64,000 nt of DNA. Source: Hexactinellida sp. DTS-2022 (taxonomy: Eukaryota; Porifera; Hexactinellida). Location: positions 496,001-560,000 of the forward strand of contig JAPNXP010000005.1 in assembly GCA_028753945.1 (NCBI GenBank), written 5' to 3'. The notes beneath the pieces were generated by a model. The model searched no databases, had not been told where the DNA came from, and saw nothing but the letters and a program-made list of their open reading frames with translations. Below, in pieces: positions 1-64,000 of the stretch; within the stretch, counting starts at the first letter, position 1, and every line of letters begins with the position of its first letter. The position numbers and the translations under genes are program-made.

Positions 1-558
1 TTTTATTGTCTTTAATCATTTGCTTGCAAGCTCAATTTCCTTAGAAGACTGAATTACGTCCTAACATGCTCACCCAATATATTTCGATCTCTATTCTACT
101 TCTGTTGCATACATTTCTTATCTTAGCGATAGTACAAGTACTTTAGAATTCCCAATATTAATATTAGAAAAAGCGCCCTAATTTAATTTTTAATGAGAAT
201 ATATGCAATCTTTGATAAAACTTTCTAACAGACCACTTTTTGGTATTAAAGAATATTTCCAACCCTAAATTTCTTATTATTACTAGTATACTTAATATTG
301 GATTTATAAGAATACCATTTATAAAGAACAAAAAATATCATATAAGATTACCATTTATTTATAAAGAAAAAATTTAAGTACCATTATTACCGTATAGAGC
401 ATACAGTAAACTCACATTATAACAAGTCAGTAAATAATCAATGACTTTGCGGCTATGAAATCAAGAACGGCTATTTAAACAAATGTTTAAATTTATTAAA
501 CAGTAGCTTAATGGTACGCCACTGTAAGCAAAAACCCGCTTATAACGAGTTATATGTA

Positions 559-671
559 CAGTCAACTTGTAACAAACTCTTTTAAGAACGAACTTCGGTT
601 ATAACAAACTCCGGTTATAACGAAATGAAACTACGGTCCCGAGCACTTCGTTATAACGGGAGTTCACAATA
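559..671. mobile_element. W1 MITE (GTTATAACGAA word), decayed right end
   Basis: Starts CAGTCAACTTGTAAC after TA at 557-558 and ends CTTCGTTATAACGGGAGTTC. Same subfamily as 23424-23670 (shared CTACGGTCCCGAGCACTTCG). Confidence 0.7.
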
Positions 672-978
672 ATTCTTTTTCCCTCTGTCTCTACCATTTT
701 TTGGTATTTAAATTATTCAAAACAAGTTACAATACTAAATTACAATATCCTTGTTTCCATATTTAACTGAATTAATATATTTATTGAAATATGATAAAAA
801 CATTATTTGGTTGAAATTATTTATTAGCACATGTTACCACTTTCCAGTTAACCTTTTTATCTTAACACTTTACAAATAATTATATTAGTTTATACTTTAT
901 AGGTTGACCTATAAAGTATGTGTTATTTGACTGCATTATTTTATTATGTGGGGAAAAATATTATTTTATGATTAAATA

Positions 979-1050
979 CAGTGAATATTATCCGTTTATA
1001 ACGAAGGAATTTACAGGTCCCAATCACTTCGTTATAACGAGAGTTCATTG
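979..1050. mobile_element. W1 MITE, 72-bp short form, TA flanks
   Basis: CAGTGAATATTATCCG ... GAGAGTTCATTG, flanked by TA on both sides. Internal words GTTATAACGA and TTTATAACGAA. Confidence 0.8.
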
Positions 1051-1852
1051 TATGTTAGAAATCTGTTGACTATTGTTATAAAAACTCTGTTAATACGAAA
1101 TTCAAAGCCTTTTGATTTATAGTGACACTTAATACAAGTGTCGGATGAGGAAAACATTTTTCGAATATCCCCTGTTCCCTAGCAACGAAAGGGGACAATA
1201 TGAATGTAAAACTAGTGAAAATACTTAATTTCTAATAAAATTATTTTTTAGCTAACTTCATGGATTTATTTGACGTATTTTGATAATTAAATATTTTCAA
1301 ATTACCTGTAGATTATTATAGTTATAATTATTACAGATAATCTCCTTAATTATTGACAACTGTGCATAATAAAACTGAGAGCATACTACTCGATAATTAT
1401 ACGTATCGTGATTTCTAAATTTTTTGCTAAATTGTTGAACTTTTCACCTGTTTTTTTGGATTGAAATTTGCGCTAATTTTATTCCATATGGAGTCTGAAT
1501 TACGTTATATAAAAAATTAATTAATTTCAAACTGTCCAAACACATTATGCACCATGACTGATAGAATAATTTAGTTTAATTAATTTAAGACTTGAATTAT
1601 TTTTCTTCAAACTCGATTGCACGGATGATTATGCTAATATTTTATAAGATTATACAGTGGAATCTGTTTTTATTTTGGACAACTAAAATACAGTTGACTC
1701 CTTTTTGTAATACTTAAGTCTTTGGGAAAATTTTTAAATTTATGCTCGTCTGGAAAATTATAAATAACAAGTCTAAATAAATTTACGCCCCTGGATAAAA
1801 ACCCAATTCCATTATTATTATTTACTTACATTTTTAACAAAATACCCGAGTA

Positions 1853-2004
1853 CAGTGCCCGTTATAACCAAGTCGGATATAACGAAATGAACATTTTTCC
1901 CCAGAGCACTAAATGCATTAATTATTATCCGCTTATAACGAATATCCGGATATAACGAAGGAATTTACAGGTCCCAAGCACTTCGTTATAACCAGAGTTG
2001 ACTG
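1853..2004. mobile_element. W1 MITE, 152 bp, TA flanks
   Basis: Starts CAGTGCCCGTTATAACC and ends CAGAGTTGACTG between TA dinucleotides (1851-1852, 2005-2006). The word TTATAACGAA recurs at both ends and inside. Confidence 0.88.
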
Positions 2005-2482
2005 TAATAGAATTGAGTGACGCGTGATGGTTATTATTTATTAATTAAAATGCTAATTTAACAAATTTCCACTAATTTCAACAATGTTTGCCTAGAGACT
2101 CTTTAATTACCAGAAATATGTGTGTTCATGTTTGATCACGAATTAATTATGAAAGTACAAAGTATCACAGGCTTGAAAATTAGAATTTATATGTTATTTA
2201 TTTTCTGTCTAGTTAAAGCTCGCATGTTCGTAGATTTAACAGGATTTCCGTATGTCCGTTAGAAAATTTATTCTGAAACAATTTTACTTCAGGTGTCCGT
2301 GAATCTCCGTTATTAAGTGTTAAAGATAACAATTTAATTAACTTTATTATCAAATGCTAAAATTAGAGTAGTTAGAAATCCGATGTTTAATTGTCTGCAA
2401 TGTGATTTGAGTTGTGCAGTGATCATCCATTTTTTTAATAATTTAAATTGTAAACTTTTTGTTTAATTTATTATTGTTAATA

Positions 2483-2638
2483 CAGTAGAACCTCGTTAGT
2501 ATGAACACCAGGGGGCCGTCAAAATGCATTCGCCTTATCCGGAATTCGTATTATCCAATATCAATGTATTGAGAAGGCTTTGAAGGGGACTGAAATAATA
2601 TTCGTATTAACCGTGTTCGTACTAACGAAGTTCTACTG
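2483..2638. mobile_element. W2 MITE (TTAGTACGAAC word), 156 bp, TA flanks
   Basis: CAGTAGAACCTCGTTAGTA ... CTAACGAAGTTCTACTG with TA at 2481-2482 and 2639-2640. Inner motifs GGGGGCCGTC and CTTTGAAGGGGACTGAAATA are shared with the other W2 copies. Confidence 0.88.
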
Positions 2639-2807
2639 TAGTTTTCCGAGGTTTAATCTAGTATTATAAACTTAGAATTGAGCCCACATAAAGACCTTTT
2701 TTAACTAAAAATAAATTCCAATTTTGCTCGCCTAAACACGATTAATAAAACTTACACATTACTCTACAAAATTTAAATTCAGTTCACTTTTTATAAAAGA
2801 GCTTGCT

Positions 2808-2965
2808 TATATGTAGACGGTATATAAAAGCCCATACAAACTAAGTTAATAATTTGTAAACCGTCTATAAATTCTGTAGACCAAAAGTCCCTGCCGTCTA
2901 TGGGTAATACTATTTAAACCAAGAAAACCTTGTCTAGAAATAGACGGTCTACATATAAGTTATTT
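2808..2965. mobile_element. L-family hairpin element (GTAGACGGT ends)
   Basis: Inverted repeats TATATGTAGACGGT / ACCGTCTACATATAA-type with inner AAGCCCATACAAACTAAG. Other copies at 19490-19640 and 37566-37665. Confidence 0.7.
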
Positions 2966-3710
2966 CTTCATAAAAGGGCTTACTTTTATACCAACCAACA
3001 TATTTTCATTATAAAAACTCGCCTTCGCAAAAGTTAATTTTTGAGGTTTTAAAGGTAACTTTGCTAGTGCCTGAAATTTAATTGGAAATTTTTATTTCTA
3101 ATATTTCTTGATCTCATTATTACTCTAATTGACAAACAAATGATTTTATGGATAAACCAGTTGCATTATTTCTAAGAGATTTACAGTTTGAATATATTAG
3201 CCTAATGATCCTGTGTTGTGTGTTTCTACAATTTTCAACTAACATGAACAAAAATTAAAAGGCAAATATTAATGCGTTATCTTATACAATCTAGCCTAGA
3301 CAATGATTGTCATTGTAAACAATGAATGTATATCTACCTCTAATATTTCTAATCATGTATGTATATTTAATCTGTTAACTAGTCATCAAATAATTTGATG
3401 ATTACCCACATTCCATTGTACCAAAAGGGTCACTTTGCTACTTCAAAGGGACCGCTATATTTTCCTAATTGCTTACACTTTTCTGACCATTTAACGACTT
3501 TTGGAGCAAATTTCGACTGTCCCCTGGTGTTCCTATTAACGAGAGTCTATTGTACGTATATACTTACAACAATGATAAATACATTTGTTCGTATAATACA
3601 GAAATTACCTCTAGTTAATTCTCAATAATTAATCTACAAATAATTATTTACTATTTTCCTGATTAAAATACTACATAGCAGATTTGAATAACCAGAAAAT
3701 ATTATTAATA

Positions 3711-3855
3711 CAGTAAACTCTCAGGATTTGTTTGTATTATCCAGAATTCGTATTAACCGGAGTAACTTGCATGCATTTGTATAGGCTAGGGGATTAAACC
3801 TTGTACTCCTTAACCGATATTCCCTTATTCGTGTCCTATTAACGAGAGTCTACTG
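3711..3855. mobile_element. W3 MITE (AGACTCT ends), TA flanks
   Basis: CAGTAAACTCTCAGG ... CGAGAGTCTACTG, TA on both sides. Contains the W3 core CTTGCATGCATTTGTATAGG. Confidence 0.85.
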
Positions 3856-4243
3856 TACGTATATAATATATATTTTTCCCATTACAAGAATAAGATTGGG
3901 AAAGGAATGACTCTAGCTATATTACCTTCGGAAATATCGCACTTTATTAGCTAATTTCCCTTCTATACTAAATATGAAATGCTTTAGCAATTATCACAGG
4001 ATATAAGTATCCACTTTATACTATCGGTGATAAATCCATCATTGTTTTTCGATAATATTTCACACTTCAATTCCTTTGCAATCAATTTGTCTCCAAGATT
4101 TCCAGAATAATGCTTGTAGTATATTATATTTAGATTGATTGCTAATCTAATGGTCTTTCCATACAGCTGTCTGATGCTTAATACAGCTACGTTTTTGGCT
4201 AAATATATTTCTCCGCGGTTATTTTATACTTTCAACTTACTAA

Positions 4244-4416
4244 CAGTAGATTATCGTTAATAGGAACACGGATAAGTCGAAATATCGGTTAAGGAGTACA
4301 AGGTTAATTCCCCTAGCCTATACAAATGCATGCAAGTGACTCCGGTTAATACAAATTACGGATAATACGAACATATTTCGACGGTCCCTTGGTGTTCCTA
4401 TTAACAAAGTCTACTG
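4244..4416. mobile_element. W3 MITE, 173 bp
   Basis: CAGTAGATTATCGTTAATAGG ends and core CCTAGCCTATACAAATGCAT; right end AAAGTCTACTG. Opposite orientation to 3711-3855. Confidence 0.82.
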
Positions 4417-4519
4417 AATTGCTATTATTAAATAATTGGCATACTTATTAATATCTATCTCGTAAACAATTTATATTCCCGTTTTTCTAAATTTTTGTAA
4501 TTTTTGAAATATATACGTA

Positions 4520-4690
4520 CAGTAGAACTTAGTTATAATGTACCTGGGTTAGTACGTACACATTATTTAACCAAGTTTATAAAGCAGTATGTATTTCTAT
4601 GTAGGGTAATCTCGATTAGTACGTACACTCGGATAATATGTACTTATTCCATTCCCGAGGGGGTACGTTATAAGTTATAACCAAGTTATA
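4520..4690. mobile_element. W10 MITE (TTAGTACGTAC word)
   Basis: CAGTAGAACTTAGTTATAA start; words TTAGTACGTAC repeat inside along with CCCGAGGGGGTACG. The right end is decayed. Other copies at 35423-35507 and 39351-39521. Confidence 0.7.
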
Positions 4691-4747
4691 CTATATCCCT
4701 TATAAGTTAAATTGAAATACACTGTATTTATATCTGTGTTTATTTAG

Positions 4748-6552: not shown

Positions 6553-9500
6553 GTTAGTGGTTATATAGCATTCCATATGTCAAGATATGTTGTCATGTAG
6601 TTATTCTAAATATTGTAGGATCGTTTGAAATATTTTCATCAAAGATCTGCATCATTTTAGCCCCTTTTTAAATTTATTTCTAAAATATTCGCGCTTATTA
6701 TAAATGTGTCAATTTATAACATAAATGTTTAGTTACTTTTAGAATATTAAAATTATATAAAGTAGACTCTGTTAATAGGAACACCAGGGGACCATCGAAA
6801 TTTGTTCGTATTATCCGGAATTCGTGTTAACCGGAGTCACTTACATGTATTTTGTATAGGCTAGGGGAATTAAACCTTGTACGTATTTCTAAATCGATAT
6901 TTCGCCTTATCCGTGTTCCTATTAACGAGAATCTACTGTATTAGATAAGCACAAATAAATTACCTGCCAGATATAAACCTTCGTTAGAATTTGCTTTTTC
7001 TAATTTACTAACATAAGATTAACAAAAACACAACTCAGTTTTTTCTAATACTAATTTAGGCACTGTCACGGATGACTTATATTTTACATTATAATTAGCA
7101 ATTCTTAAAATCGTTTCAGAATGTGTCATTATGTGTTGCAGATGTTATGGGGACAAATTAAATTCACACTCTCAATATAACTTTGAATTAACGCTAAATA
7201 AATTAGCGTTTAACGGTTATCATATGGACGGTACATACTGGTCTTATAGCTAACTTGTCTCTATCAAATAGTAAGCTTTTACTTATCATTAATTAACCTT
7301 ATATGCTATTCAAGCTGTTAGACTGACCCAGCGTTATATACTACAGTAGACTCTGTTAATAGGAACACGGATAAGGGGAAATATCGGTTAAGGAATACAA
7401 GGTTAATTCCCCTAGCCTATACAAATGCATGCAAGTGACTCCGGTTAATACGAATTCCGGATAATACGAACATATTTCGACGGTCCCTTGGTGTTCTTTT
7501 TATCGAGATTCTATGTAGCTGATATTATTTTTGCCAAAAGGCTATCTACAAAATTTGTGCCAAAATAAATACTCAATATTTTAATGTAATAACAATTAAA
7601 TTAATATTCTTACTTTCAAAATATGTATACTTTTCATTTTATGCCATCTATACATTTTGTGCTATATGCTATTATTATTTTTGAATAATTATTTTATTTT
7701 TATAGACGTTATACAATTGACTCCGCTTAATAGGGTCAGTTTTGTTCCAGGGTAGCTTGACCCAATTAAGCGGAGAAATCTAATAACCGAAAATATTTTA
7801 AGCCAAACTGTAATTCCGTCCTATAAATCCTGTGAAATTTTAACCCAATTAATTAAACGGATAAATCTATTAACCGGTGGCTCTATTAAGCGGAGAAATC
7901 TATTAACTGGTGGATATATTAAGCGAAATCAACTAGCAATTGTATTTTTATTTCCTATTTATAGGTGCATCGTCTGTGTTTCCAAATATGGCCTGTGCTC
8001 TCTTTCCTGGCGAATCGAAATGCAGTCTTGAGTGTAGGCGGTGGTGTGTATTATGAAGATGAGAATTTGTATGGAATTATCAGCCTTAACTACCAAAGAC
8101 AACCTTCGGTATTCTTTGAGACGAAAGGAACCAAAATACAATCTCCTATGTTATTGTAAGTTCTATAGGATTTGTATGTATTAAGCCAGTAAACTAGTTT
8201 TTGATATATAAAAAATTTTTCACATTAAATGACCTCCCAATTTAATAATTCCCATAAGATTTCTATTAATTACAACTTACAATTAAACAAGTCTACAGTA
8301 TTTAATTGTTTAAAAATACAGTCAGGTCCGCTTATTGTGAAATTTTTCGTCTGCTTAATATGAAATAAACAAGTTCTATGGTCCAAATTTAACAACTTAC
8401 ATAGGGTTTGTATTAAGTTGAGTTCGCTTATTATGAAGTCTCTCTATTATGAGCACAATTTTTGGCCCCTTGAATGTTCATAATTAAAGAACCTGACTGT
8501 AATTCCATTTTTAATACGTATAAAATATGTTTCGTTAAATTAAATTAATAAATTTACTAAGAAATATCTGCTATACAATTTCTATGAACAATAGACATTA
8601 GTAAAACAAATATCTATCTTTTAAAAATGCTGAGAGTTAATAATATTATTTTTAATTATATAATTTAATTTCCTATCAAGTTATTTCCGCTATCAGCAAT
8701 TTTGGATGGGGAAATCCATTAATTGTATTTAATTAATAAAAGAAAGTTCTATGTTAAGCGGTATGTTTTCAAACGGGTTTGCATATTTTGCTAATTTTTT
8801 AGAATTATTTGAAATCAAAATTAACTATCATAAATACGTACAATGGATATATAATATACAGTAGACTCTCGTTAATACCACCACAGATAAGGCGAAATAT
8901 CTGTTAAGGAATACAGTGGATGCCAGTTATAATAACATCGTCGGGAACTGCATATTATGTCTTATAACCGGCATAAATTATATAGGGGTATATGGCAACC
9001 GTTTTCCAGTAGAATGTTCTTATATCCGGTGTTCTTATAACCGGTGTTCTTATATCCGGCATGTTCTTATAACCAGTGTTCTTATATCCGGCATCTACTG
9101 TATATGGTTTAATGCAAGTGATTTCCAGTTAATACGAATTTCAGATAATACGAACAAATTTCGACGGTCCTCTGGTGTTCCTATTAACAGTGTCGAGTAT
9201 CTATTCTATACAAAAGGGACATTATCCTACGTATTAGTATAACTGTTTATACAGTAGACTCTAGTTATAACGAATATCCGCATATAACGAAGAAGTTTAC
9301 AGGTCCAAAGCACTTCGTTATAACGAGAGTTAACTGTACAGTTGAAACCGGTTTTTCCAGGTTTTTCTAAATAACTATTTATTCTAATTGTGTCATAAAT
9401 TCTAATTTTGTTTTGTTTACAATCGGTTTATTCTAACTACAGTAGATACCGGATATAAGAACATTATATTCAAAAACGGTTTCCATCTACCCTTATATAA

Positions 9501-12500
9501 TTTATGCCGGTTATAAGAACATTATATGCAGTTCCCGACGATGTTCTTATATCTGGCATCCACTGTATCGGATTTGCTTTACTTTTTTCCATGCAAAGAA
9601 TTGGTTAACAAAAGGATTGGTAACCAGTTTCGACTGTAATAGCCCTCCCATAAAAATGTCTCAAAAGGCATTTGTTTGAATGGTTACAAATGTATAAACA
9701 GGATTTTTCCTGGAAATGAAATATTACAAAACCAATATAAAAAGGTACAGTGAAATTAAATAACTAAATTACTATTTGGAACTGAAACTAAGCATAACTA
9801 GTTACAGATATTGTTGCTATGGAGAGATAATGGAATGTGGTTATGCGTAGCATAGTAGCCATATGGTTGCCAGGCTGTGTAGCGAGCAGAGAGCTCTGGG
9901 ATTGCCTGATAGAGTTGTGTGGTTAGTGGTGTAACGGGATAGCTAGCAGAGAAGTGGCGTGTTGCGTGGTGCGAGCTGTGTGAGTATAAGAAGAGCAGCC
10001 AGCAGAGATAGGACAATGCAACTGTGTTAAAGGAACTGAAACCAATCGAGAGTAGAATGGCAACTGAGTTTGTAGCGGACATGCGAGAAGAGACAGCCAG
10101 AGACCTGGAACGAATTCGAGGGGAAGTGGTGATAGCGAAAGAGGAGTTACGAGTCCGATTCGAGGGTTATTTCCAAGTGCTACGTGGCAGACACCTCGAA
10201 CTGGTGGCACAGCTGGATGAAGTGGTCCGTGTGGCAGAGACACAAGTGGAGGACAGACAGGTGAAGCTGAATCAGCTGAAAGTGACCAAAGCTGATGTGA
10301 CACACAATCTCCAACACAATGAGCTCAACGAGATTCTAGTAAATGTGTCCCGAGAGTTGGACGAGAAGATACGGGGACTAGAGGCGACTGTGGATCGGAT
10401 TCCATCTGTGTGGCTCGAGTGGCATGACGGGTGGTTGGAAGGTGGCATGGCTGGATTGTGTCGCTTGTGTGAGGGTGTATCCTACGTGAACAGACACAAC
10501 CCAGTGTGGTCTGGTGTCAATAAAGGAGAGGGACAGATTGAAATATATTCTCCTCGTGGTTTGTCAATAGACAGAGACAATGGAGATATTTATGTGTGCG
10601 ATTATTTGGTTGCTAATAGGATTCAGGTGTTTAGCAAAGGAGGCAATTATTCTAGAACAATTAGGCCACAAGGAATGAATTATCCTGATTACATAACTGT
10701 CTCACTCCATCACCTGTTTGTCAGCTGTGATAATCCATTTAAAATTTTTTCATTTTACCAAAAAATATTACCATCATCATTAAATGGCGCCTAAATAGCT
10801 TAACCACAAATCTGAGATTCTCAAAAGTGGTTCCATTGGACTCACAATGGTTGATTACCCCATATACAATCCAAATAACCACAATAGAAGGCATGGTTTA
10901 GCTTTGAATAAAATTTAAAACTGGCCTTCTTGTTTGAAGGCCAAGTCGGGAACATACACAGCCGTATATATAGTAAGCCATGATTACGTCTATGCGAGTA
11001 TCTCTCGATTTTAGCGCCTAGACAAGTTTCCTATAAAATTACGCGCCTGGATGAAACCATGATTGTACAGTGGTGTTTAGTGTATTATACAGCCATTTGT
11101 AAATACGCTCCTAATCTGGTATGATTCAGTTTCATACGCCTAAATTACAAATTAATGTTACGGTATAGGAGAGGATTCCAAATTTTCTCGCTCCTAAATT
11201 CAAAATTTCCAAAATCATGCTCCTAGAGGAGCGTCTCGCGCTCCTGGATAATTCCTTGAATATAAGGTACAGTTGAAACCAGTTTTTTCTAAATAGCACC
11301 GGGTTTTCTAACTTATCAAATATTTTTAAAACTTTTTCCAACTAACTATTTATTCTAAATGTGTAATAAATTCAAATTTTGTTTTATTTTCAATCGGGTT
11401 ATTCTAACTATCGGATTTTTCTGACTTTATTTCCATACAAAGAAATTGTTAGAAAAACCGGTTTCGACTGTAATAGATCCTCCCATAAAAATGGCTTAAA
11501 AGGCATTTACAAACAGGATTTTTCCTGTGGAAATGGAATAATAGTACAGAACAAAAATCAAATTTTTTGAATAATTAAATTACTATTTGGAAATGAAACT
11601 AAGCATAACTAGTTACAGATGTTGTTGCTATGGAGAGATTATGGAATGTGGTTATGCGTAGCATAGTAGCCATATGGTTGCCAGGCTGTGTAGCGAGCAG
11701 AGAGCTCTGGGATTGCCTGATAGAGTTGTGTGGTTAGTGGTGTAACGGGATAGCTAGCAGAGAAGTGGCGTGTTGCGTGGTGCGAGCTGTGTGAGTATAA
11801 GAAGAGCAGCCAGCAGAGATAGGACAATGCAACTGTGTTAAAGGAACTGAAACTAATCGAGAGTAGAATGGCAACTGAGTTTGTAGCGGACATGCGAGAA
11901 GAGACAGCCAGAGAGCTGGAACGAATTCGAGGGGAAGTGGTGATAGCGAAAGAGGAGCTACGTGTCCGATTCGAGTATTGTTTCCAAGTGCTACGTGGCA
12001 GACACCTCGAACTGGTGGCACAGCTGGATGAAGTGGTCCGTGTGGCAGAGACACAAGTGGAGGACAGACAGGTGAAGCTGAATCAGTTGAAAGTGGCCAA
12101 AGCTGAAATGTCACACAATCTCCAACACAATGAGCTCAATGAGACTCTAGTAAATGTGTCCCGAGAGTTGGACGAGAAGATACGGGGACTAGAGGCGACT
12201 GTGGATCGGATTCCATCTGTGTGGCTCGAGTGGCATGACGGGTGGTTGGAAGGTGGCATGGCTGGATTGTGTCGCTTGTGTGAGGGTGTATCCTACGTGA
12301 ACAGACACAACCCAGTGTGGTCTGGTGTCAATAAAGGAAAGGGACAGATGGAAATATATGCTCCTTTTGGTCTGTCAATAGACAGAGACAATGGGGATAT
12401 ATTTGTGAGTGATTATTGGCCTGCTAGTAGGATTCAGGTGTTTGGCAAAGAAGGAAATTATTCTAGAACAATTAGGCCACAAGGAATTACTTTTCCTAAT

Positions 12501-15500
12501 TGCGTAACTGTCTCACTCCATCACCTGTTTGTCAGCTGTGATGATCCACTTAGTATCTACAAGCTAGATAAAGTGTCTGGGGACATTCTGTGTTGTGTTA
12601 AAACAGAGTATATCATGTGTGGTCTGTCAGTTGACACAGACACACTGTATGTAGGAATGTGTCTAACTAATAGCATATCTCATTTCAGTGTTGAGGATTT
12701 CCGCTCTGTCGATAGGACTCCACTTAACTCTCCACACATAACAAAGGACACTATGCTACGCGACCTGAAATTAGCTCCCTCTCTATTTATAGTCCTGTTT
12801 GATGTCTGTCCCTATTCCATCCAATCATTTACCAGAGATGGGAACCTAATGCATTCGATTGTGTTACAGGAACAGCTGATTGGAGCTAGCTATTTCTGTC
12901 TGGACAGACACATGAATATCATAATTAGTGACTGGAGTGCTCATAGTGTTAAAGTGTTCGACAGAGAGGGACAGCTTGTCGGTACCATGGGACACAATGG
13001 GACAGGACCTGGAGAGTTCCTATCTCCTAGCGGCATAGATATCAACAAGGAGGGACTTGTTGTTGTTGTTGATAAGAAGTCCTCTCATATGCTACAATTC
13101 TTCTAATTCCTATTTGTTTGCGTTTGTTTATCATGAAAATAATATAATAACTGTTGACTAACTTTAATAATATTCTTCTTATTTAAATTTGTTACACCAG
13201 TTCTAATTTATAATCACTATAAGCAAATAAACAAACAAACAAACAAACAAACAAACAAACAAACAAACAAACAAACAAACAAACAAACAAACAAACATAC
13301 AAACATACAAACAAACAAACAGTACAAAGTTAACTACAAACAAACATACAAACAAACATACAAACATACATACAAACATACATACAAACAAACACATATA
13401 CAAACATACAAACAAACAAACAAACAAACACACATACAAACAAACAAACAAACAAGCAAGTATCCTTATGACTGTTTGTATTATTTATTAGACTAACCTA
13501 TTAACCTATTATACTGTTTATATTATTTATTAGACCTACGGATAAAGTAGCGGTAATATTGTATACTATATTAGCTCGAGCTTTATAAGTAAATTCTTAA
13601 CCGTATTTACTGCATATACTGTATACTATTTATACTATTTATTAGACCGACGGATAAAGTAGACCCTGTGTCGCTACCAAAGCTGGATGGGTTTAACTGG
13701 GGACAGATCGGTCCGATTACTCTCCTAAACCTGGCGCATCTCTCCGGGCTATGGGACGACGAGGAAATGAATGTGCTCACTGCTGGCGCCCCGTTTCTTA
13801 GCAGGGGATACGCTAAGTTAGTATAGGCAGTGGTTATAAATAAACCATCTGCATATACGTACGTATAGTACAGTAGTGACAACTTATAATGCATATAATG
13901 TAGTGGTTATAAATACACCAAACGTAGAATGCTTTAGGGGATCCACGGTTGGGAATTGCTGTTATACATAAATATAATTGTACGTATATTACAGTGGTGT
14001 TCGCCTTAGCATGGCAATTGCTCTATATTGCTATATAGCATATAATAATATTGTGTGTTGTATGGTAATTTATTCCCGGATATTTCTAGTTAGTTAGGTG
14101 CTACCGTGTACGTATACCAAGTATTTATTCGCGATTATAAAATTCTTCCCTTTAAAAGGGGGATTATTCGAGTAAATACTGTAAACAAATTTGTTTACTT
14201 GTTTACTTACGATTTGTTGTCAGACACCTGCTGACTGGTCAGGACGCTATGGAAGTGACACATTCCAGCTCTGCTGTCCCTATCAACGTAACTGGGTCTC
14301 TGGAATGGAGACAGATTCTTATGTGGGAAGTACAGGCAATGGCTTTAAGGACTCTACAGGTAATGTGTGTGTAGTTTGTATTAGCTATTGTAATATTGTA
14401 ATGGTGAAATGTAGTGAATTTGTTGAGAATATTTTGACCTTTGTTTATTTGTTTGTTTGTTTGGTTGTTTGTTTGTTGTTGTTTGTTTGTTTGTTGTTTG
14501 TTTGTTAGTTAGTTTGTTTGTTTATTTGTTTTTTAATTTGTTCATATAGTTATTTATTCGTTCATTTGTTCATTTGTTTATTTATTTGTTTGTTTATTTG
14601 TTTGTTTGTTCATTTGTTTATTTGTCTATTATTTGTTCATTTATTTATTTTTGTTTTTATTTGTTTATTTGTTTACTTGTTAATTATTATTTTTTATCTC
14701 TTTGCTATTCTACTATTGTTTACTTTCTGTTTGTTGTTGTTTACAGACCGTGCTCACACAAGATCGCTTTCTCCAGCTTCTAACCTACCACCCCATCTCG
14801 ATAAGCGACCAGACCCTAACAGAGGACAAGGCAGATCTCTCCCAGGCTGTTCAACAAATAATGCGACACATCGTAACACGCTCCACCTCCCCCAGCCCGC
14901 TTGTACCGGCTGTCTCTCTCGCGTGTCTCGAGACAGCTCACGGACTCCTTATTAGGAACTCTATTCTTAAGCTATACACAGATTGTGCAGGTACATAATA
15001 TACAGTATACGTAATCTATATTTAAAACCCGGTTTCTAAAACATGAATTTTGATGCTATTCTGATCCCGAATAAAGTACAGTAGATGTCGGATATAAGAG
15101 TTGGAAAACGGTTGCCATATACCCTATATGTTTTATGTTGGTTATAAGAACATGCCGGTTATAAGTACATTATATGCAGTTCCCGACGATGTGTTTATAA
15201 CCGGCATCCACTGTATTCTATTATTTTATACTATTATTTTATTCTATTATTTTATTCTATTATTTATTCTATTATATTATTATATTATTTATTCTATTAT
15301 ATTATTATATTATTTATTCTATTATATTATTCTTACTAATTAGACGCAATCCTGGGTGGCGACAAGCTTGACGAAAAGGAGTTATCCATAGTCCATATCC
15401 CCACCCCCCCACCCGACCTACCTAAGATATATCATCCCACGAATGTGCCTCCCCCGATCCCGCCTAAAACGAGACATGTGTCCCCTGCCCCCCTGTCCCC

Positions 15501-56918: not shown

Positions 56919-58108
56919 TATATAACAGAAATAATATAATTCAAGAAGATTAATTACTTTATAATTATAATTTCCAATATTTATATACACTTGTTTAAGC
57001 CTAATATTTGTCCCGCTAACATAATACAATTCTCCTTTAGCCGTTTTACGACAACAATTGCAAGCAAATTTTTTAAATTTTATTACGGCATATTGAGTAA
57101 TGATATTAATTGATTATCTGTTAGTTTGTAATTTGATAAATGTCGTGTGGGTATTGCGTAATGAGACTCGTATGCTAATTATTATAATTATAATATATTC
57201 TTATTTATGGAAATTGGGTGGAGCTTAATTGCACAACGTAATTAATACATTAAAATCTAAGTGCATATTTTATAAGGTCACTGATAAGAATATCTTTAGC
57301 TTAAAATCTATTTAAAAGTTCAATAGTTGCAAAGTTTAGTATTACATGAGACCTTTATAATAGTTTTATCATCGTGTTAATATGAACACGGATAAGGCGA
57401 ACACGATTAAATTTCCTTATACAAATGCATAGATGACTTAAGTTAATATGAAAATATTTCAACGGTCCCCTGATGTTCGTATTAATGAGAGTCTACTGTA
57501 TTTATGTACAAAATTATACGTTTGGGTGAATAAGCTATTTTATTGAACCTGTAAAATCGCCAAGAAATAATATTCAAAGTACGACAAGCAAATTAGATCT
57601 TTTGGGGTTATGAAATTAGGATTTACAGTAGAACCTCGTTAATAGCAATTTCCGGTTAATAAGTACACTATTTCAGTCCTTCAAAGCCTTTTCAATACAA
57701 ATGACATTGGATAAGTACACATTTTGACGGTCCCCTGGTGTTCGTACTAACGAAGTTCTACTTTACTCACATATTGGTAAACACCTTTTATAATGAAATT
57801 TACAGTCACAGGCAAGGTCATTATTTTACACAAGAATAAAGAATCAATTTTCTATTTGCATTTGGATTTGTTCACTTGTTACTTAATATATTTTACACAA
57901 ATAATTCAATCCATGTAATTATTATTAATTACCTCAACAAGTATACAAATAATAATAATAATACAAACAATTTGTAGTAACTTATTAAAGACATATGTAC
58001 TTGTACATTAGAGAGAAAGTGACTGTGTAAGATATTAATGAGTAAATGTGGGGAATAAAAATAGATATTTTTATCTTGTAAAATAGCAGTAAAATTAGCT
58101 GAGATGTG
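56919..58108. other. Intergenic gap between SLC44 and LLGL
   Basis: AT-rich. It should hold the SLC44 promoter (none recognised) and the LLGL 3' UTR. Contains a W3 element (57372-57498) and a W2 element (57627-57763). I looked for an R-SNARE coil or further LLGL exons and found none. Confidence 0.65.
57627..57763. mobile_element. W2 MITE
   Basis: CAGTAGAACCTCGTTAATAG ... CTAACGAAGTTCTACTTT. Confidence 0.8.
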
Positions 58109-61100
58109 TTAAAGGAGTTTTTGTGAATGAATTGATTGGTTGCTACGAGAATCAGGTCTAGAAAAAATGGAAATAAAAATAAGGTAAAAACTTAATACAG
58201 TGGTGTTCGCGTAATAGCAAGTCGCATTTTGAATGATATTTGCTTGCTAATAGGCGAACTTGCTATTAGAGGAACAGAATTAACATTAAATGCTCGCTTT
58301 GGGACTGAAAATAAGTTGCTAATAGAGCAATTGCTAATTTGCTATTAGGCGAATACCACTGTATTATGAACAAGTCCTATGGTCCCAATTTAACAACTTA
58401 ATAGGGTTTGTGTTAAGTAGAGTTCGCTTATTATGAAGTCTCTCTATTATGAACACAATTTTGGTCCCTTGAACGTTCAAAATAAAAGAACCTGACTGTT
58501 TAATTTGTTATAATAGGAAAGTTCACTAACCCAATAAGTTCACTAATCATTTGTTAATACGTAGTACAATCTAGCTATTAAGAAATGGCTAAAATTGGTA
58601 GTAATACTAGCTCTTGTATTGTATAATTGGAATTGAAACCCCAAAGTGTTTAATAACTATTCCAAAGTTCAATTCAAATACACTCGACTTTCCTTATAAT
58701 GCAGCTAAAAACGAAGTATTCTACCAACAAACACTCTAGTTTCATAAATCAATTCTTAGAATTTGAAAACATTGAATTCTCAAATAAGATTTGAAGAATT
58801 CTCAAGTAAGATTTGAAGACATTGAATTCACGAATAAGTTTTCTACACTAATTAAACTCTTACAAGCTACTAATTAGCACACTACGGTTATAAGAGTTTG
58901 GAAGTTATATAATTACTACCTTGGTGTTAAGATTCTCTCTCCAATAGTAGCGATGCGTTGAAATCTACAAAGAGTAAACTTATAAGATTATAGTCTGAAT
59001 ATTTTAACACTTATTGTATTGCTATAGGATTACAGTAGAACCTCGTTAGTACGAACACCAGGGGACCGTCAAATGTGTACTCCTTATCCGGAATTCGTAT
59101 TAACCGGTGTCGTTTGTATTGAAAAGGCTTTGAAGGGGACTGAAATAGTGTTCGTATTAACCGGAATTTCGTATTAACCGTATTCCTACTAACGAGGTTA
59201 TACTGTATGTACTTGATCAATTACAAAGTTACTTTAAAAAATGAAAGGATAAAATTATTACGGTAAAATATAAGGAATACAGTAGAACCTCGTAACACAG
59301 TTAATACGAATTCCGGATAAGGCGAACGCATTTTGACGGTCCCCTGGTGTTCCTACTAACGAGGTTCTACTGTAGTTGTACATAACAAACCTTGATAGTT
59401 CGATAAGAGAATACTTTTGGAATTGCAGCTGACTGCATTGTGCTATAATTAGACCAGAAGGAGTCATACACAAACTCTTCTGAGCTCTAAACAATAATAA
59501 TAAACAAATAATAAGTGTTGTTGTTTGTTTAAGAATGTTTTAATATACAATCGACTATTTTCCAAAACAAATGAACTATATCGGTCAACACATTTTAATC
59601 AAATACAGTCAGGTCTGCTTTTTGTGAACAATTTTTCGTCGCTTAGCTTAATATGAACTTTATATTATGAACAAGCCCTATGGTCCCAATTTACAACTTA
59701 CATAGGGTTTGTATTATGAACACAATATTGGTTCTTTGAATGTTCATATTAAAAGAACCCAACTCTATAAAACCCGGTTCGCAAAGGTGAACTTTGATGT
59801 AACAAAGTAACCTTACCAAAAATCACATTAGAAAAGGTGTTGTGTTATCCGATATACTACTACATTTAAGTAATACCTTAGAGTGTATACTAGCTACAAG
59901 AGATTACTTTACACTAACTAACTAAAGAGATTACTTTACACTAGCTAGCTACAAGACTAATTACCTGACATCGGTAGGATCTACTATAGGGATCCTATGC
60001 AGCAGTCTCATGTCCGGGAGGCTGTACACACTCAGCTGTCCCTCGTTATCGAGTGTAGTCAGACACATCATGCCTGTTAGCACATGTTAGTAGTATATAC
60101 AGTAGATACTGGTTTGATACAAATACAGTGGAGTTGCTTTATTAGCAACTCCCCTATTAGCAATATTGTTTTATTAGCAATCGCTTTTCAGATCCCAAGC
60201 GTGATAATACTGTTAATTTCATTCCCCTATTAGCAACCAGATTTAGTGGCAAACACGGGGTTGCTATTAAGCGAACTCCACTGTAGGTAAATGTCAATAC
60301 AGTAAACTCCCGTTATAACCAAGTCGGATATAACGAAATAACTGCTTATAACGAAATGGTAATTTTCCCCCAGAGCACTAGATGCATTAATTATTATCCG
60401 CTTATAACGAATATCCGGTATAACGAAGGGATTTACAGGTCCCAAGCACTTCGTTATAACGAGAGTGCACTGTACAGTAGACTCCCGTTATAACGAAGTG
60501 TGAGGCCCCTATACTAGTTTACTTCGTTCTAGAAAGTGGAAATTGGCTTTGGCTCTACACACAATGGAGCTTTACAAATTTAGGGATAAATATTTGTAAA
60601 TGTATATTTCTAATTCTAACCGTTAACATTTAGAAGTTCAGTCTTTATAAGTCGAATGGAGTCATTTTCATCGATTCTTAATCTTTCTTTACTTTTCTTC
60701 TTCATTCCAGGTAGATTCACGATCTACATAGTATTAATGCGTAGTTACAAGTTTGGGTATATGGAATGCAGTGTCTATTTACCTTAATATAATCCTCGGA
60801 ACACATGAGTAGTGTATGTGGGCCCTTTAAACCTAAATAATAAATAATAATAAATAATACAAATACAGTCAGGTTCTTATATTATGAACATTCAAGGAAC
60901 GAATTGTGTTCATAATAGAGAGACTTCATAATAAGCGAACTCAACTTAATACAAACTCTATGTAAGTTGTTAAATTGGGACCATAGGGCTTGTTCATAAT
61001 AATAAAAGTTCATATTAAGCAGACGAAATTTATTCACAAAAAGAGACCTGACTGTAACAACAACAACAATAAATGTCTAATACAGTAGAACCTCGTTAGT

Positions 61101-62323
61101 AGGAACACCAGGGGACCGTCAAAAAGTGTTCGCCTTATCCGGAATTCATAACCAATATAATTTGTATTGAAAAGGTTTTGAAGGGGACTGAAATAATGTT
61201 CGCATTAACCGTGTTATCACTACCTAGGTTATACTGCATACTATTCTCTATAACTGACCCATATAACTTATAACATAACTAATAGCTTATAACTGACCCA
61301 TATAACTTATAACATAACTAATAGCTATAACCTACCCTTAGCCCCGACGGGGGGCTGCACTTGGTTGGCAGAGTCGAGTACGGTTATTCTCGTGAGCGGA
61401 GAGGCCCGTCTCAGATAGAGAGGCTTCCCGACCATGTGCACCTCTGTTTGTCTGTTCTTCCTGTTTCCCTTCGAGGGAAGCGATATGGACATTCTGAGCA
61501 CGCTCCCGTCGCTAGTGCCGGCCCATAGGCACAGCTGGGCATTGCTGCCTATGTGGACCACGGATATTATAGGATATGTATTGTGTTTGTTCGTATTAAC
61601 CATAGTCACTTGCATGCATTTGTAATTTTGTATAGGTTTAGTACGTACAGTAGCTAGTAGATGCCGGATATAAGAATATTATACTGGAAAACGGTTGGAA
61701 TTTACCCATATATTATTTATGTTGGTTAGAAGAACATTATATGCAGTTCCCGACGATGTTCTTATAACCGGTTACGACTGTATTGTATTCGCCTAATAGC
61801 AGCAATATCGCTCTATTTGCAAGTTATTTTCAGTCACCAAGCGAGCATTTAATGTTGTACAGTATACTACATGGTATTCATGGTCTTTCAGTGTATTAGG
61901 TTGAAGTAACTAACTTACTATACAATCACTGTAAATTATACCAGGAATGTATACTAAATAGTTAGGTTGTACTATACCATGGATAATATAAATCACTATT
62001 CATATGTGAATACAGTCTGAATACAAACTGGTTTTGACTGTATTAAATTACAAATACATACCTGATATGAATGTAGTTGTGAATGTGAGACACTTGATTA
62101 CGGTTTGACAGTTCCCGAGTGGCGTTTGTCGCACAGCTGTTAGCAGGGGTGCGGCGCCCCTGACAGCTGAGCCTGTACCCCCCCTCATGGAGGAGCGACC
62201 TCGGATTGAGGAGTGGAAAGTGCGGGACCGGCGGCCCGAGCCGGCGCGACGCAGATTCCGGAAACTCTGTCGGAAGGACTGACGCATCGAGTTTCTTCTC
62301 GTGAGACTCGAGTCATCTGCTAT
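58109..62323 (-). CDS. LLGL: Lethal giant larvae homologue, C-terminal eight exons
   Basis: Exons on the minus strand: 62323-62062, 61548-61336, 60832-60783, 60723-60621, 60073-59965, 59486-59391, 58964-58920 and 58157-58109, a continuous frame of 308 residues plus stop. LLGL is a cortical WD40 scaffold for cell polarity and exocytosis. Visible landmarks are a basic Ser-rich stretch RRNSMRQSFRQSFRNLRR that matches the aPKC-phosphorylated loop of LLGL, then TVIKCLTFTTTF, CLWAGTSDGSVLRMSISLP, HTLLMCSEDYIKIVNLPG and MMCLTTLDNEGQLSVYSLPDMR. The acceptor of the first exon could also be at 62328. The last exon (16 residues) is least certain. No R-SNARE coil follows, which argues against tomosyn. 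The N-terminal half is not in the window. Confidence 0.8.
58198..58361. mobile_element. W8 MITE, 164 bp, complete
   Basis: CAGTGGTGTTCGCGTAATAG ... AGGCGAATACCACTG with TA flanks; the reference copy of this family. A W5 right half follows (58364-58499). Confidence 0.9.
59033..59205. mobile_element. W2 MITE, 173 bp, TA flanks
   Basis: CAGTAGAACCTCGTTAGTACG ... CGAGGTTATACTG. Confidence 0.88.
59280..59372. mobile_element. W2 MITE, 93-bp deletion form
   Basis: CAGTAGAACCTCGTAACACAG ... CGAGGTTCTACTG, TA flanks; 18 bases from an LLGL exon. Confidence 0.87.
59577..59860. mobile_element. K-family MITE split by a W5 element
   Basis: TATATCGGTCAACACATTTT before and AAAACCCGGTTCGCAAAGG after; W5 at 59606-59768 (CAGTCAGGTCTGCTTTTTG ... 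AACCCAACTC). Confidence 0.8.
60126..60283. mobile_element. W9 MITE, 158 bp, TA flanks
   Basis: CAGTGGAGTTGCTTTATTAG ... AAGCGAACTCCACTG. Confidence 0.9.
60300..60472. mobile_element. W1 MITE, 173 bp, sharing a TA with a second W1 end
   Basis: CAGTAAACTCCCGTTATAAC ... CGAGAGTGCACTG; at 60475 a further CAGTAGACTCCCGTTATAAC end follows the same TA. Confidence 0.9.
60866..61054. mobile_element. W5 MITE, 189 bp, TA flanks
   Basis: CAGTCAGGTTCTTATATTATG ... AAAGAGACCTGACTG. Confidence 0.9.
61083..61236. mobile_element. W2 MITE, 154 bp
   Basis: CAGTAGAACCTCGTTAGTAGG ... CCTAGGTTATACTG. Confidence 0.86.
61647..61780. mobile_element. W6 MITE followed by a W8 fragment
   Basis: AGTAGATGCCGGATATAAG ... 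CCGGTTACGACTG; TATTCGCCTAATAGCAGCAA of W8 begins at 61783. Confidence 0.78.
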
Positions 62324-62451
62324 CTGACCTACATTGTGATATGTAGGAGTAATTATACAGTGAATAGCCATTGTAGGGACCTGATTTTGTGGAACTGTTT
62401 GTTCGTCTTATCCGGAAATTCGTATTAACCGTTCGTACTAACAGTAATATG

Positions 62452-62715
62452 GCCGTACAAACGTTACTTAGACACCCCCTCCCTATGTCATGTTTTTTGG
62501 ACCTGTTTGTAATATAAATGAATGAATGAATAAGACTTTATTTTTGGAGGAATGCCCATTCACAATATGTGAATAATACACAAATACAGCAAGCAAAAAT
62601 ATACAAAGACGAACACATAAACTAAACAACCAAAGAAAATGATAAGTTACAGATGATTGATTATTTGATAATTTTTTCCTGTTTTTTTTAGTTACGTAAC
62701 GTTTGAACGGCCCCT
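62452..62715. mobile_element. GTTACGTAAC-ended MITE split by a retroposon 3' end
   Basis: GGCCGTACAAACGTTACTTAG left and AGTTACGTAACGTTTGAACGG right. Between 62518 and 62690 lies minus-strand sequence ending AATAAAGTCTTATTCATTCA, a polyA-signal-plus-microsatellite tail typical of LINE/SINE insertions. Confidence 0.65.
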
Positions 62716-63114
62716 TAGTAGGGACACCAGGTGACTGTCGAAATATGTTCCCCTTATCCGAAATTAATTCAAAGAGTGTCAGGGTGTGTATCTATTATTT
62801 AATTATTTAACAAGTCTTATTATATTTGGTTTATTGTTATTGTTTGTATTTTATTTTCTGTTTACTAATCACTATTATATCTATATGTCAGTAAATTGTT
62901 TAGAATTGTTTGATTCCTTTATCTCATTGTAATTCATTAGGCTTTATTGAGTTTCCATATTTATGATAACAATTAATTATTTTCACATAATTATTGGTTC
63001 TATAATCAGTTATCTTAGTTACACTATGACCTTATAGGTATATTCCATTGGACTAGAAGGCCATTTTATGAGCCCAGCACATTCATAAGTAATACAGAAT
63101 TATAATTGTAGGTG

Positions 63115-63272
63115 TGAGAGTTCAAACTTGAAACGTTACGTAATTAAAAATTCCCGAAAATTAGACGACGCCCCTCCCTATGGCCCATTTTATAATTACC
63201 ACAAAAGGATGGTCTGTCACACATTGGTTACCCCCCCCCTTTGAAATACTCACGTAACGTTTGAACGGTCCC
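63115..63272. mobile_element. GTTACGTAAC-ended MITE
   Basis: GTTCAAACTTGAAACGTTACG left, CTCACGTAACGTTTGAACGG right, inside GGATGGTCTGTCACACATTG. Confidence 0.8.
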
Positions 63273-63332
63273 TGTAATACTGAGTGTACAATATTCGGAT
63301 ACTAAATATTGCCTATGAAATCTTTCCATTTT

Positions 63333-63650
63333 CTGGAAATACGTCGAATCATAAAATGCATCGTCGAATACTCTACTTTTCTAAATATTATAAATATTGT
63401 CTGGAGTATTTTTTGTATTTTCAATTCCTGGAAAATACGTTGAATCATAAAATGCATCGTCGAATACTCTACTTTTCTAAATATTATAAATATTGTGTGG
63501 AGTATTTTTTGTATTTTCAATTCCTGGAAAATACGTTGAATCATAAATGCATCGTCGAATACTCTACTTTTCTAAATATTATAAATATTGTCTGGAGTAT
63601 TTTTTGTATTTTCAATTCCTGGAAAGTACGTCGATTCATAAATGCATGGT
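63333..63650. repeat. 95-bp tandem repeat, 3.3 copies
   Basis: Units start CTGGAAA at 63333, 63428, 63524 and 63619 (spacing 95, 96, 95). Each holds CATCGTCGAATACTCTACTT and TATTATAAATATTGT. It ends about 140 bases before the SAR1 start codon. Confidence 0.93.
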
Positions 63651-63786
63651 TGAATGACTATTATACTCCACTTATCTAATCCATGGTTCGGATACACAAC
63701 ATAGTCTACTGCTCTGACGTAAGATCACCAACGTTGCTCTAACATAGCTTATATTAGCTAAGTTGCTATAGAAATTATAACTGAAT

Positions 63787-64000
63787 ATGTCTTGGATTCT
63801 AAGCTCAATTTCTGGCTGGTTTTCCAGCGTTCTAACCTCGCTAGGGCTTTGGGGGCGAAGCGGAAAACTTGTATTTCTCGGTTTAGATAACGCCGGTAAA
63901 ACAACCCTCCTACATATGCTACGGGATGGCAAACTAGGCCAACATATTCCTACTACACACCCAACCAAAGAAGAACTGTCACTAGGAGGGATAACATTTA
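63787..64000 (+). CDS. SAR1: SAR1 small GTPase, N-terminal part, runs off the window
   Basis: The first 71 codons read [20 protein letters not shown], then [45 protein letters not shown]. The amphipathic N-terminal helix, the P-loop GLDNAGKT (32-39) and the THPTKEEL switch I threonine are diagnostic of SAR1. It is the GTPase that inserts its helix in the ER membrane and recruits the COPII coat. No intron is seen in the visible part. It is divergent from LLGL, whose upstream exons must lie beyond it. Confidence 0.93.

Follow-up and report, generated by a model that had tools for sequence, protein, structure and literature searches.

What mobilised the short repeats that crowd a stretch of the genome of Hexactinellida sp. 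DTS-2022 (GCA_028753945.1, contig JAPNXP010000005.1, positions 496,001-560,000 of the forward strand), and do they belong to one transposition system, as a first, sequence-only reading had suggested? Our analysis of this stretch of 64,000 nt, hereafter the window, shows that it is packed with copies of short mobile elements from at least ten families, and makes it very probable that these are non-autonomous pogo/Tigger MITEs of diverged CENP-B-like transposase lineages, which have a common end layout and their own MITE pools.

Ten families of short elements in the window

Scanning the window with one 24-base end model per family and up to 6 mismatches, we found 136 end-like sites from ten families (A 25, B 9, W1 18, D 15, E 19, F 19, G 12, H 7, I 9 and J 3), compared with 1, 0 and 0 in three shuffles, and a TA adjoins 111 of them. 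The CAGT-ended, TA-flanked word families described in the sequence-only reading are thus real. In line with this, sites of TACAGT and ACTGTA together number 181 where 41 are expected, and TACAGT...ACTGTA pairs with at least 15 of 20 matching arm bases occur 32 times, compared with none in 50 shuffles. Automatic pairing gave 42 pairs with 39 distinct right ends, three of the pairs overlapping others; TA flanks both sides in 33 and one side in 8, and 39 have a length of 85-201 bp, leaving no room for a transposase gene. With five further pairs from families B, J and I made by eye, the window holds about 44 two-ended elements, so that the proposed figure of more than 70 copies holds when single ends and fragments are included and fails for two-ended elements. 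The families have the properties that mark MITEs: they are short and noncoding, with terminal inverted repeats and a high copy number.

Genome-wide, eight end patterns representing nine families (J left out) yield 1,016 to 5,766 ends each, while the reversed-pattern controls yield 0 each. From these counts 11.3 ends would be expected in the window and 99 are found, which bears out the impression of a very dense region. The density of the eight patterns is 7-12 times the genome-wide value, and we regard the window as a hotspot, with the ratio possibly somewhat too high, as the genome-wide repeat counts may be lower bounds; for the patterns checked, the exact C14 matches listed in the window equal those of a separate window scan. 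A TA duplication is directly seen once, where a family F element (41463..41587, plus strand) is inserted in a family I element (41336..41629, minus strand, paired by eye): the filled site reads CTAATA[F]TAAAACAA, and the empty site, CTAATAAAACAA, is preserved in the I copy at 60126..60283.

Internal words and the shared asymmetric layout

The internal repeats on which the sequence-only reading was built are far commoner than in shuffled sequence, with 78 words (75 in window elements and 3 in an H copy at locus L021) where shuffles give 2.0, by a word model that had been widened with internal sites. Models made from terminal words only find 86 internal sites in 39 window elements (shuffles 5.6), of which 66 fall in four narrow position slots (shuffles 1.2), the slots having been defined once the word positions were known and then scored on a mostly identical set of elements. 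At a strict threshold, 15 of the 39 MITEs have both a direct-word and an inverted-word module, 16 the inverted module only, 1 the direct module only and 7 neither.

The layout is best followed family by family, with word positions given in bases from the TA and marked + for direct and - for inverted words. Family D (word TTAATAGAGTC) has five minus-strand MITEs, at 16942..17118 and 22901..23084 (both left 11+,47-,64- and right 11+,27+,44+), 27482..27666, 29042..29224 and 40665..40850 (arm bases matching 20/20), and a plus-strand short element of 102 bp at 35509..35610 (left 11+,27+,44+). Family W1 (word TTATAACGAA) is represented on the plus strand at 19327..19483 (5' end 11+,29+; 3' end 11+,46-,63-) and 60300..60472 (11+,26+,44+ and 11+,46-,62-), on the minus strand at 49944..50111, within a longer composite (49820-50111), by the element at 51019..51151, in which no module was scored with strict slots, and by a short plus-strand element of 85 bp at 9252..9336. 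Family F (word TTATAAGAAC) includes the minus-strand MITEs at 36651..36807 and 38420..38576 (left 11+,46-; right 11+,26+,43+), one in the opposite orientation at 42531..42687 (plus strand), two more on the minus strand at 27662..27800 and 8914..9100 (the latter having, from its right end, five direct words) and, besides the nested copy, plus-strand copies at 9440..9565, 15079..15213 and 61655..61780. Family G (word TTTTTTCTAAC) occurs at 11270..11470 (plus strand, right end 11+,47-,64-), 20711..20862 (minus strand, left 11+,47-,64-), 16336..16491 (minus), 36391..36541 (plus) and 18256..18392 (no module scored), and family E (word TTATTATGAAC) on the plus strand at 8319..8499, 22531..22725 and 52417..52600.

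The smaller sets are H (word CTAATAGCAAG), at 58198..58361 (minus strand, left 11+,47-,63-); I (word TTATTAGCAAC), with the source of the empty site (60126..60283, plus strand, 11+,26+,43+ and 11+,48-) and the element holding the nested F (left 11+,47-,63-); J (word TTAGTACGTAC), paired by eye at 39351..39520 (minus strand, left 11+,46-,63-) and 4520..4692 (plus strand, 11+,27+ and 17+,51-,68-); and B (word TTAATAGGAAC), likewise paired by eye, at 4245..4416 (plus strand, right end 10+,46-,62-) and 6761..6935 (minus strand, left end 9+,45-,61-). In family A (word TTAGTACGAAC), the minus-strand element at 59033..59205 has one direct word, inverted words and a GGGGACC box in its left end and direct words in its right end; the inverted-word module alone was scored at 51885..52026 (minus strand, left end, TA on both sides), 47006..47187 and 40268..40432 (both plus strand, right end), and no module at 47453..47625 and 2483..2638 (strict slots), 38595..38735, 57626..57763 (TA on both sides) or 61083..61236. 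No strand is assigned to the elements in which no module was scored.

The same genome contains 114 matches to DDE_1, of which we examined 51 for ends (38 as whole loci and 13 by a short end probe). Ends were recognised at 23 of these places (18 whole loci and 5 probes); the remaining 20 whole loci and 8 probes yielded no usable end. Both ends could be read in 17 elements, representing 10 lineages by word, about 2-3 kb long and with TA-CAGT or near-CAGT ends followed by word arrays with a spacing of 15-18 bp. In the 14 of these elements that are listed, models widened with internal sites find 4-8 internal words per element (0.09-0.44 in shuffles). For the 17 elements, models made from terminal words only give 63 internal sites, and 56 of them fall in the layout slots, where shuffles place 4.05.

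These elements and the window MITEs have a common asymmetric end layout. Counted in bases from the TA, the 5' end carries direct words at about 11, 28 and 45, and the 3' end one direct word (at 11), then a spacer that in most cases includes a GGGA box, and two inverted words at about 46 and 63. It follows that the 3' end, read on one strand, repeats the inner 5' block in direct order and adds a terminal word in inverted order; the 5' block recurs directly in the 3' end in 12 of 12 cases, a count that depends on the word positions. GGGA is present in 17 of 24 3' spacers, some of them closely related, and in 0 of 20 5' ends (shuffle mean 1.3, maximum 6). By strict scoring, 14 of the 17 elements with both ends read have one direct and one inverted end. 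Exceptions to the layout are L057, whose modules are swapped relative to the gene, L043, where 5' words 2 and 3 are missing, and L039, whose 5' end scores as inverted and yet has direct words in the widened-model scan. The ends also differ from the symmetric IR/DR type, with two direct-repeat sites per end, as one end is direct-only and the other has inverted internal sites. This asymmetric, position-fixed layout, often with a GGGA box, had been missed by the sequence-only reading, whose assignment to the pogo/Tigger type is strengthened by its presence in DDE_1 elements of the same genome. Most autonomous 5' ends have a second word cluster near 107-150, and the MITEs keep about six sites.

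The layout is kept while the word changes, terminal-word identity between lineages falling to 0.33. Only three of the ten listed words fit the proposed consensus TTA-W-TA-N-S-AA-C exactly, and three have a length other than 11 bases. That each family repeats its own word is true of the majority, a lineage's own terminal word being the best match among 20 lineages for 89 of 139 internal slots, and breaks down in family A, whose internal words match the B terminal word best in 10 of 12 cases and their own in 0 of 12; the own word is likewise best in 0 of 8 slots of lineage a2 and 0 of 4 of a9, where another lineage's word fits better. One could read the fixed layout as shared ancestry only, with one old element whose positions have not yet drifted and a spacing without function: A and B seem, by eye, homologous along their whole length, and some lineages have more than 80% of the terminal word in common. 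We consider this rather unlikely, since site positions stay within a few bases even between the most different words, sites in slots exceed those in shuffles (56 against 4), and internal words so often follow the terminal word of their own lineage.

Transposase lineages and their words

All ten proteins scanned, chosen for DDE_1 and several of them fragments, match that domain; HTH_Tnp_Tc5 is above cut-off in seven, and CENP-B_N is matched in five and above cut-off in only two. The catalytic aspartates D172, D279 and D309 are invariant in seven aligned transposases, whose profile matches the CENP-B DNA-binding domain (1hlv) with an E-value of 2e-25 over 124 aligned positions and includes two proteins without a CENP-B_N match (L024 and L046). 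Complete transposases thus have a CENP-B-like DNA-binding domain. Its N-terminal HTH is more diverged than the catalytic domain, mean identity in six proteins being 24% for HTH1, 35% for HTH2 and 41% for DDE_1, with HTH1 of L024 placed by hand without a Pfam match and L054 cut at its N-terminus. Protein identity between lineages is 28-53%, and it is these parallel lineages with a common end layout, not 'one transposition system', that form the proper unit.

Transposase similarity correlates with word similarity (Mantel r=0.43, 73 of 5000 permutations, for 10 lineages with proteins that are in part fragments), with some pairs, such as a8-a9 (protein 0.30, word 0.87), breaking the correlation. 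Such a correlation argues against internal words being cis-regulatory or host-protein sites, for instance of a host CENP-B-like protein. Although pogo-derived proteins of this kind are described in passages of a survey (PMC7386202), a single host protein would keep the words constant, and they vary by transposase lineage; we find this explanation highly improbable.

In one lineage, L025, a single end word is common to copies of the transposase and to 22 pairs of MITE size. This word occurs at 101 ends genome-wide; the 100 ends listed include those 22 pairs (mostly 154-185 bp, two with a common right end), and five ends lie no more than 1.5 kb from a DDE_1 place, compared with a random mean of 0.24 and a maximum of 3. 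Six of the eight long pairs with this word enclose no DDE_1 match. Tc1 elements also have TA targets, often with ends of CAGT type, and internal direct repeats (IR/DR), and the genome contains 56 matches to the Tc1/mariner domain DDE_3, about 20 of them covering most of the profile. Mobilisation by Tc1/mariner transposases is nevertheless very unlikely: the MITEs agree with DDE_1 elements of this genome in their asymmetric layout, word arrays, GGGA box and terminal frame, the L025 word is linked to DDE_1 directly, and no unrelated superfamily was found to carry these ends in an end reading that covered DDE_1 places.

Among the DDE_1 places with recognised ends, we found no transposase carrying the identical end word of any window family. 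By alignment of ends, with 28 comparisons per MITE, the best partners are L062 for D (z 8.0 for the 3' end at 16942..17118 with the end beside this DDE_1 place, z 7.9 for 22901..23084), L024 for G (3' end at 11270..11470, z 7.5), L025 for W1 (5' end at 60300..60472 with the transposon 5' end, z 7.3) and L039 for J (3' end at 39351..39520, z 7.2). For families H and I no convincing partner emerged (highest z 3.0 and 3.2), and partner assignments remain weak for A, B, E and F because the layout is common and many other lineages also reach z 4-6. The proposal that related transposases diverged in word recognition while the architecture was kept agrees with the constant layout, the lineage-specific words and the protein-word correlation, and that of one transposase lineage per word is supported in outline, through L025 and the same correlation; for the ten window words themselves, neither extends to an exact match.

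Under the pogo/Tigger origin that we favour, each MITE would be a longer element pared down almost to its two end modules, and a CENP-B-like transposase, with two HTH domains and DDE_1, would read a word of about 15-17 bp. As protein and word diverge with the layout unchanged, each lineage would mobilise its own MITE pool. The layout may be selected for assembling both ends, and the transposases that mobilised the window families are presumably either still unread or already lost. Whether this amounts to a general principle we hold to be evenly balanced: the pogo/Tigger layout would be conserved and word-independent, and lineages would escape cross-mobilisation by changing word and CENP-B-like domain together, producing in one genome a dozen or more mutually insulated systems, each with MITEs of its own, and some would be concentrated in different chromosomal regions.

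Relation to known systems

In Drosophila pogo, Wang, Hartswood and Finnegan reportedly found in 1999 a 12 bp sequence, within the terminal repeats, that the transposase binds; the likeness is that there, too, a pogo transposase DNA-binding domain reads a short end site. Feschotte and Mouches are said to have described in 2000 MITEs from a pogo-like element in Arabidopsis, similar in origin, whereas the sponge genome has many families with different words together. In Sleeping Beauty-type Tc1 elements, each of the IR/DR ends has two direct repeats, in a broadly symmetric arrangement; these ends resemble the sponge ends in having several sites per end and a TA target, and differ in site number and orientation. 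The CENP-B box has a length of 17 bp, which the word spacing in the sponge elements resembles, and the profile match to 1hlv is a further likeness; CENP-B itself is a host centromere protein, unlike the sponge transposases.

Closest are the pogo/Tigger elements (CENP-B_N, HTH_Tnp_Tc5 and DDE_1), which are like the sponge elements in TA target, short terminal repeats, length of about 2-3 kb and CENP-B-like domain. Passages of the surveys report Tigger in Porifera (PMC7386202, PMC9219625) and deduce that the CENPB, JRK, POGZ and TIGD genes derive from pogo transposons (PMC7386202). The passages concerned mention terminal repeats only, and the term 'subterminal' is absent from the main text of three surveys (PMC7325037, PMC7386202, PMC9219625); in the literature searched, we found no account of a layout with three direct words at one end and one direct plus two inverted words at the other, or of many parallel words per genome.

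At least ten transposase lineages with readable ends, mostly one layout and different words would provide DNA-binding domains already paired with their sites, with which the change of specificity in CENP-B-like domains becomes directly testable. From the layout comes a suggestion for a simple rule by which orphan MITEs could be assigned to pogo/Tigger and one of their ends distinguished from the other, and the sites retained by the MITEs hint at which sites suffice for mobility.

Families of the window and their distribution

The ten MITE families of the window (A, B, W1, D, E, F, G, H, I and J), each with its own terminal word, had been described from the sequence alone as real families with TA-CAGT-type ends at very high density, and both statements held. 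At up to 6 mismatches in 24 positions, the window contains 136 ends of the ten families, against 0–1 in three shuffles, and TA adjoins 111 of them. Automatic pairing yielded 42 pairs with 39 distinct right ends, 33 of the pairs having TA on both sides, and 5 further elements were paired by eye. In the one case open to test, where an F element has inserted into an I element, the TA was genuinely duplicated: it is present on both sides of the insertion, versus a single TA in another I copy. An end at 17561, CAGTGGAACCCCACTTAACGGTCATCC, resembles that of the lineage of L039 (L-numbers denote loci matching the transposase domain DDE_1, or their element ends), so that the window probably has families beyond the ten listed. 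The consensus TTA-W-TA-N-S-AA-C, which most words had been said to fit, was rejected as a family definition, as only 3 of the 10 words fit it exactly.

In the assembly (112.4 Mb, 18 contigs), eight end patterns representing nine families (J was left out) were each found at 1,016 to 5,766 places, counts that can be lower bounds, while the reversed pattern gave 0 matches for each; exact matches on C14, the contig of the window, agree with a separate window scan where checked. The window holds 99 ends of these eight patterns against 11.3 expected (with the size of contig C16 obtained by subtraction here and in the contig-end figures for B and W1), an approximately ninefold enrichment shared by every pattern (7- to 12-fold), and the high density thus belongs to the region, not to the genome. 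The window's genes, among them those for a CPEB protein, a choline transporter-like protein, an Arf-family GTPase and NHL-repeat proteins, point to an animal, probably a sponge.

The MITE families are zoned along contigs. Within 1 Mb of a contig end, where a fraction of 0.32 is expected, lie 75 of 77 exact copies of B ends, zoned at one end only on 15 of 17 contigs, and 24 of 29 of W1 ends, and the window itself is within such a zone. The L062-type word, which is close to that of D, shows the reverse tendency, with 14 of 95 exact copies in this range; L025-type ends are near expectation (40 of the 100 listed), and 19 of 114 DDE_1 places fall there.

Other repeats are also present. At 31200-32535, a 21 bp unit is repeated about 64 times (97% match), which leaves several reading frames open over ~1.5 kb, though the array is not a gene. 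A dispersed repeat of a different kind, with TGCAATTTTGGATTTT inverted ends and GTGCCGACTATACTATAGTATAGTGGC, occurs at 33086-33209, 33934-34060 and 30008-30203, as well as at L014, L024, L030 and L044, where it adjoins several transposons. The motif TAGACGGT, part of another dispersed repeat, has 13 window copies on both strands (e.g., 2810-2950 and 37550-37600).

Layout of the element ends

DDE_1 has 114 matches in the genome, of which we examined 51: 38 loci were covered whole, and at the other 13 a short probe was placed at the expected element end. A gap-free TIR search, which missed some ends, preceded an inverted-repeat BLAST. Recognisable ends were present at 18 whole loci, the other 20 having no accepted end pair, and at 5 of the 13 probed places, with 3 further probes cut at their edge (L060, L067, L071) and 5 without an end. 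A distant candidate pair at L036 (span ~5 kb) and single or repeated end-like stretches at L023, L052 and L058 were left out of use, and the counts exclude L044 (like L045) and the single end L063, both of which were read. The resulting layout set comprises 17 two-ended elements in ten lineages by word. Among 10 scanned proteins, several of them fragments, HTH_Tnp_Tc5 is over cut-off in 7 and CENP-B_N matches 5, over cut-off in 2; a profile built from seven transposases aligns with the CENP-B DNA-binding domain (1hlv) at an E-value of 2e-25.

Fourteen elements were scanned with word models widened with internal sites. At the end next to the transposase N-terminus, 12 of them have only direct internal words. 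In L039 a single inverted word, at 123, stands among direct ones, and L057 is unique in carrying its direct and inverted end modules the other way round with respect to the transposase gene. Excluding L057, direct words lie near both 28 and 45 nucleotides from the TA (26-31 and 43-48) in 11 of 13 elements, two elements of lineage a3 lacking this, and in most 5' ends a second cluster of direct words follows near 107-150. At the opposite end, internal words are all inverted in 13 of 14 elements, near 43-49 and 60-67, with L022 having the first position only and L048 one extra at 171. When the models are built from terminal copies alone, these position ranges (slots) contain 56 of the 63 internal sites in the 17 elements, against 4 in shuffles, and 14 elements have one direct and one inverted end (exceptions: L043, L039 and L057); because slot limits were set after inspecting word positions in elements and MITEs, this and the MITE slot counts describe the pattern and are not a blind test. 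Read on the top strand, the 3' end repeats the inner 5' block in direct orientation, which partly restates the word positions: direct alignment of the two beats every shuffle in 12 of 12 elements, inverted alignment in 0 of 12. The spacer carries a GGGA box in 17 of 24 3'-type ends versus 0 of 20 5'-type ends (shuffle mean 1.3, maximum 6).

The MITEs share this layout. The comparison covers 39 window elements: 34 of the 42 automatic pairs, those 130–210 bp long, and the 5 paired by hand. The remaining 8 pairs, of other lengths, and the F and H copies from beyond the window do not enter it. Of the 86 internal sites in the 39 elements, 66 are inside slots, against 1.2 in shuffles. At a strict threshold, 15 elements have both modules, 16 the inverted only, 1 the direct only and 7 neither. 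The layout is clearest in D, F, W1, H, I, J and B, and weaker in A, since the internal words of A are unlike its terminal word and fit that of B best (10 of 12 slots, against 0 for its own). With the end layout in common, MITEs of ~130-190 bp are close to two end modules of ~80 bp, without the second 5' cluster, and such a two-module MITE may represent the minimal mobile unit.

Two tandem arrays, at 34777-35026 (86 bp x 2.9) and 26872-27066 (83 bp x 2.4, also with GGTCCC), have units carrying pogo-type words and are apparently end modules turning into small satellites.

Words and transposases

Across 20 lineages (10 transposase, 10 MITE), the lineage's own terminal word is the best match for 89 of 139 internal slots; in a2, a9 and A it is never the best. 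Between the ten transposase lineages, each represented by one element (L025 by a stop-free piece), protein identity correlates with terminal-word identity (Spearman 0.43, a value reached in 73 of 5000 permutations), though some pairs, for example a8-a9, depart from the trend. In six proteins, HTH1 is the most diverged region (mean identity 24%, against 35% for HTH2 and 41% for DDE_1), the HTH1 of L024 having been placed by hand without a Pfam match.

We compared the ends of one element per family (two for D) with 12 autonomous elements and 4 single ends, 28 comparisons each. The best partners are L062 for D (z 8.0; L062 is known from an end and a DDE_1 place alone), L024 for G (7.5), L025 for W1 (7.3) and L039 for J (7.2), while H and I have no good partner end (best z 3.0 and 3.2); z values of 4-6 are frequent with other lineages too, since the layout is shared.

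The L025 word, found at 101 places genome-wide, follows the pattern predicted by one transposase lineage, one word and one MITE pool. Among the 100 listed places, 5 ends, at four loci, are no more than 1.5 kb from a DDE_1 place (random mean 0.24, maximum 3). Two of the eight long pairs have a DDE_1 match between their ends and the other six do not. A further 22 pairs have the size of MITEs, mostly 154-185 bp, with one right end common to two of them. The expectation of one transposase clade per word is thus backed in outline by L025, with its ends at DDE_1 loci and its MITE pool, and by the protein-word correlation, but not by the window's own ten words, for which the 51 of 114 DDE_1 places examined yielded no transposase with the exact word.

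Prior descriptions and parallel lineages

Human Tigger1 ends may have the same tandem pattern, and a 1999 study by Wang et al. reportedly deals with the binding sites of pogo. A search of viral contigs returned one distant relative, L072 (19% identity), which has no recognisable TA-CAGT ends, and a search of genome contigs found no relatives outside this genome. Surveys of pogo/Tigger elements report TA targets and terminal repeats that are short, and list Porifera among the hosts of Tigger (PMC7386202, PMC9219625); the term 'subterminal' is absent from the main text of three such surveys (PMC7325037, PMC7386202, PMC9219625). No description of the layout was found in the accessible text of the literature searched, which includes these three, PMC9976928, PMC2170065 and PMC10280926, most subscription papers lying outside the search.

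The proposal of a 'lexicon' of one transposition system was right in that the families are real and mostly as guessed, but they represent many parallel pogo/Tigger lineages and not a single system. What is new is that an asymmetric end layout stays fixed and the word placed in it can change.
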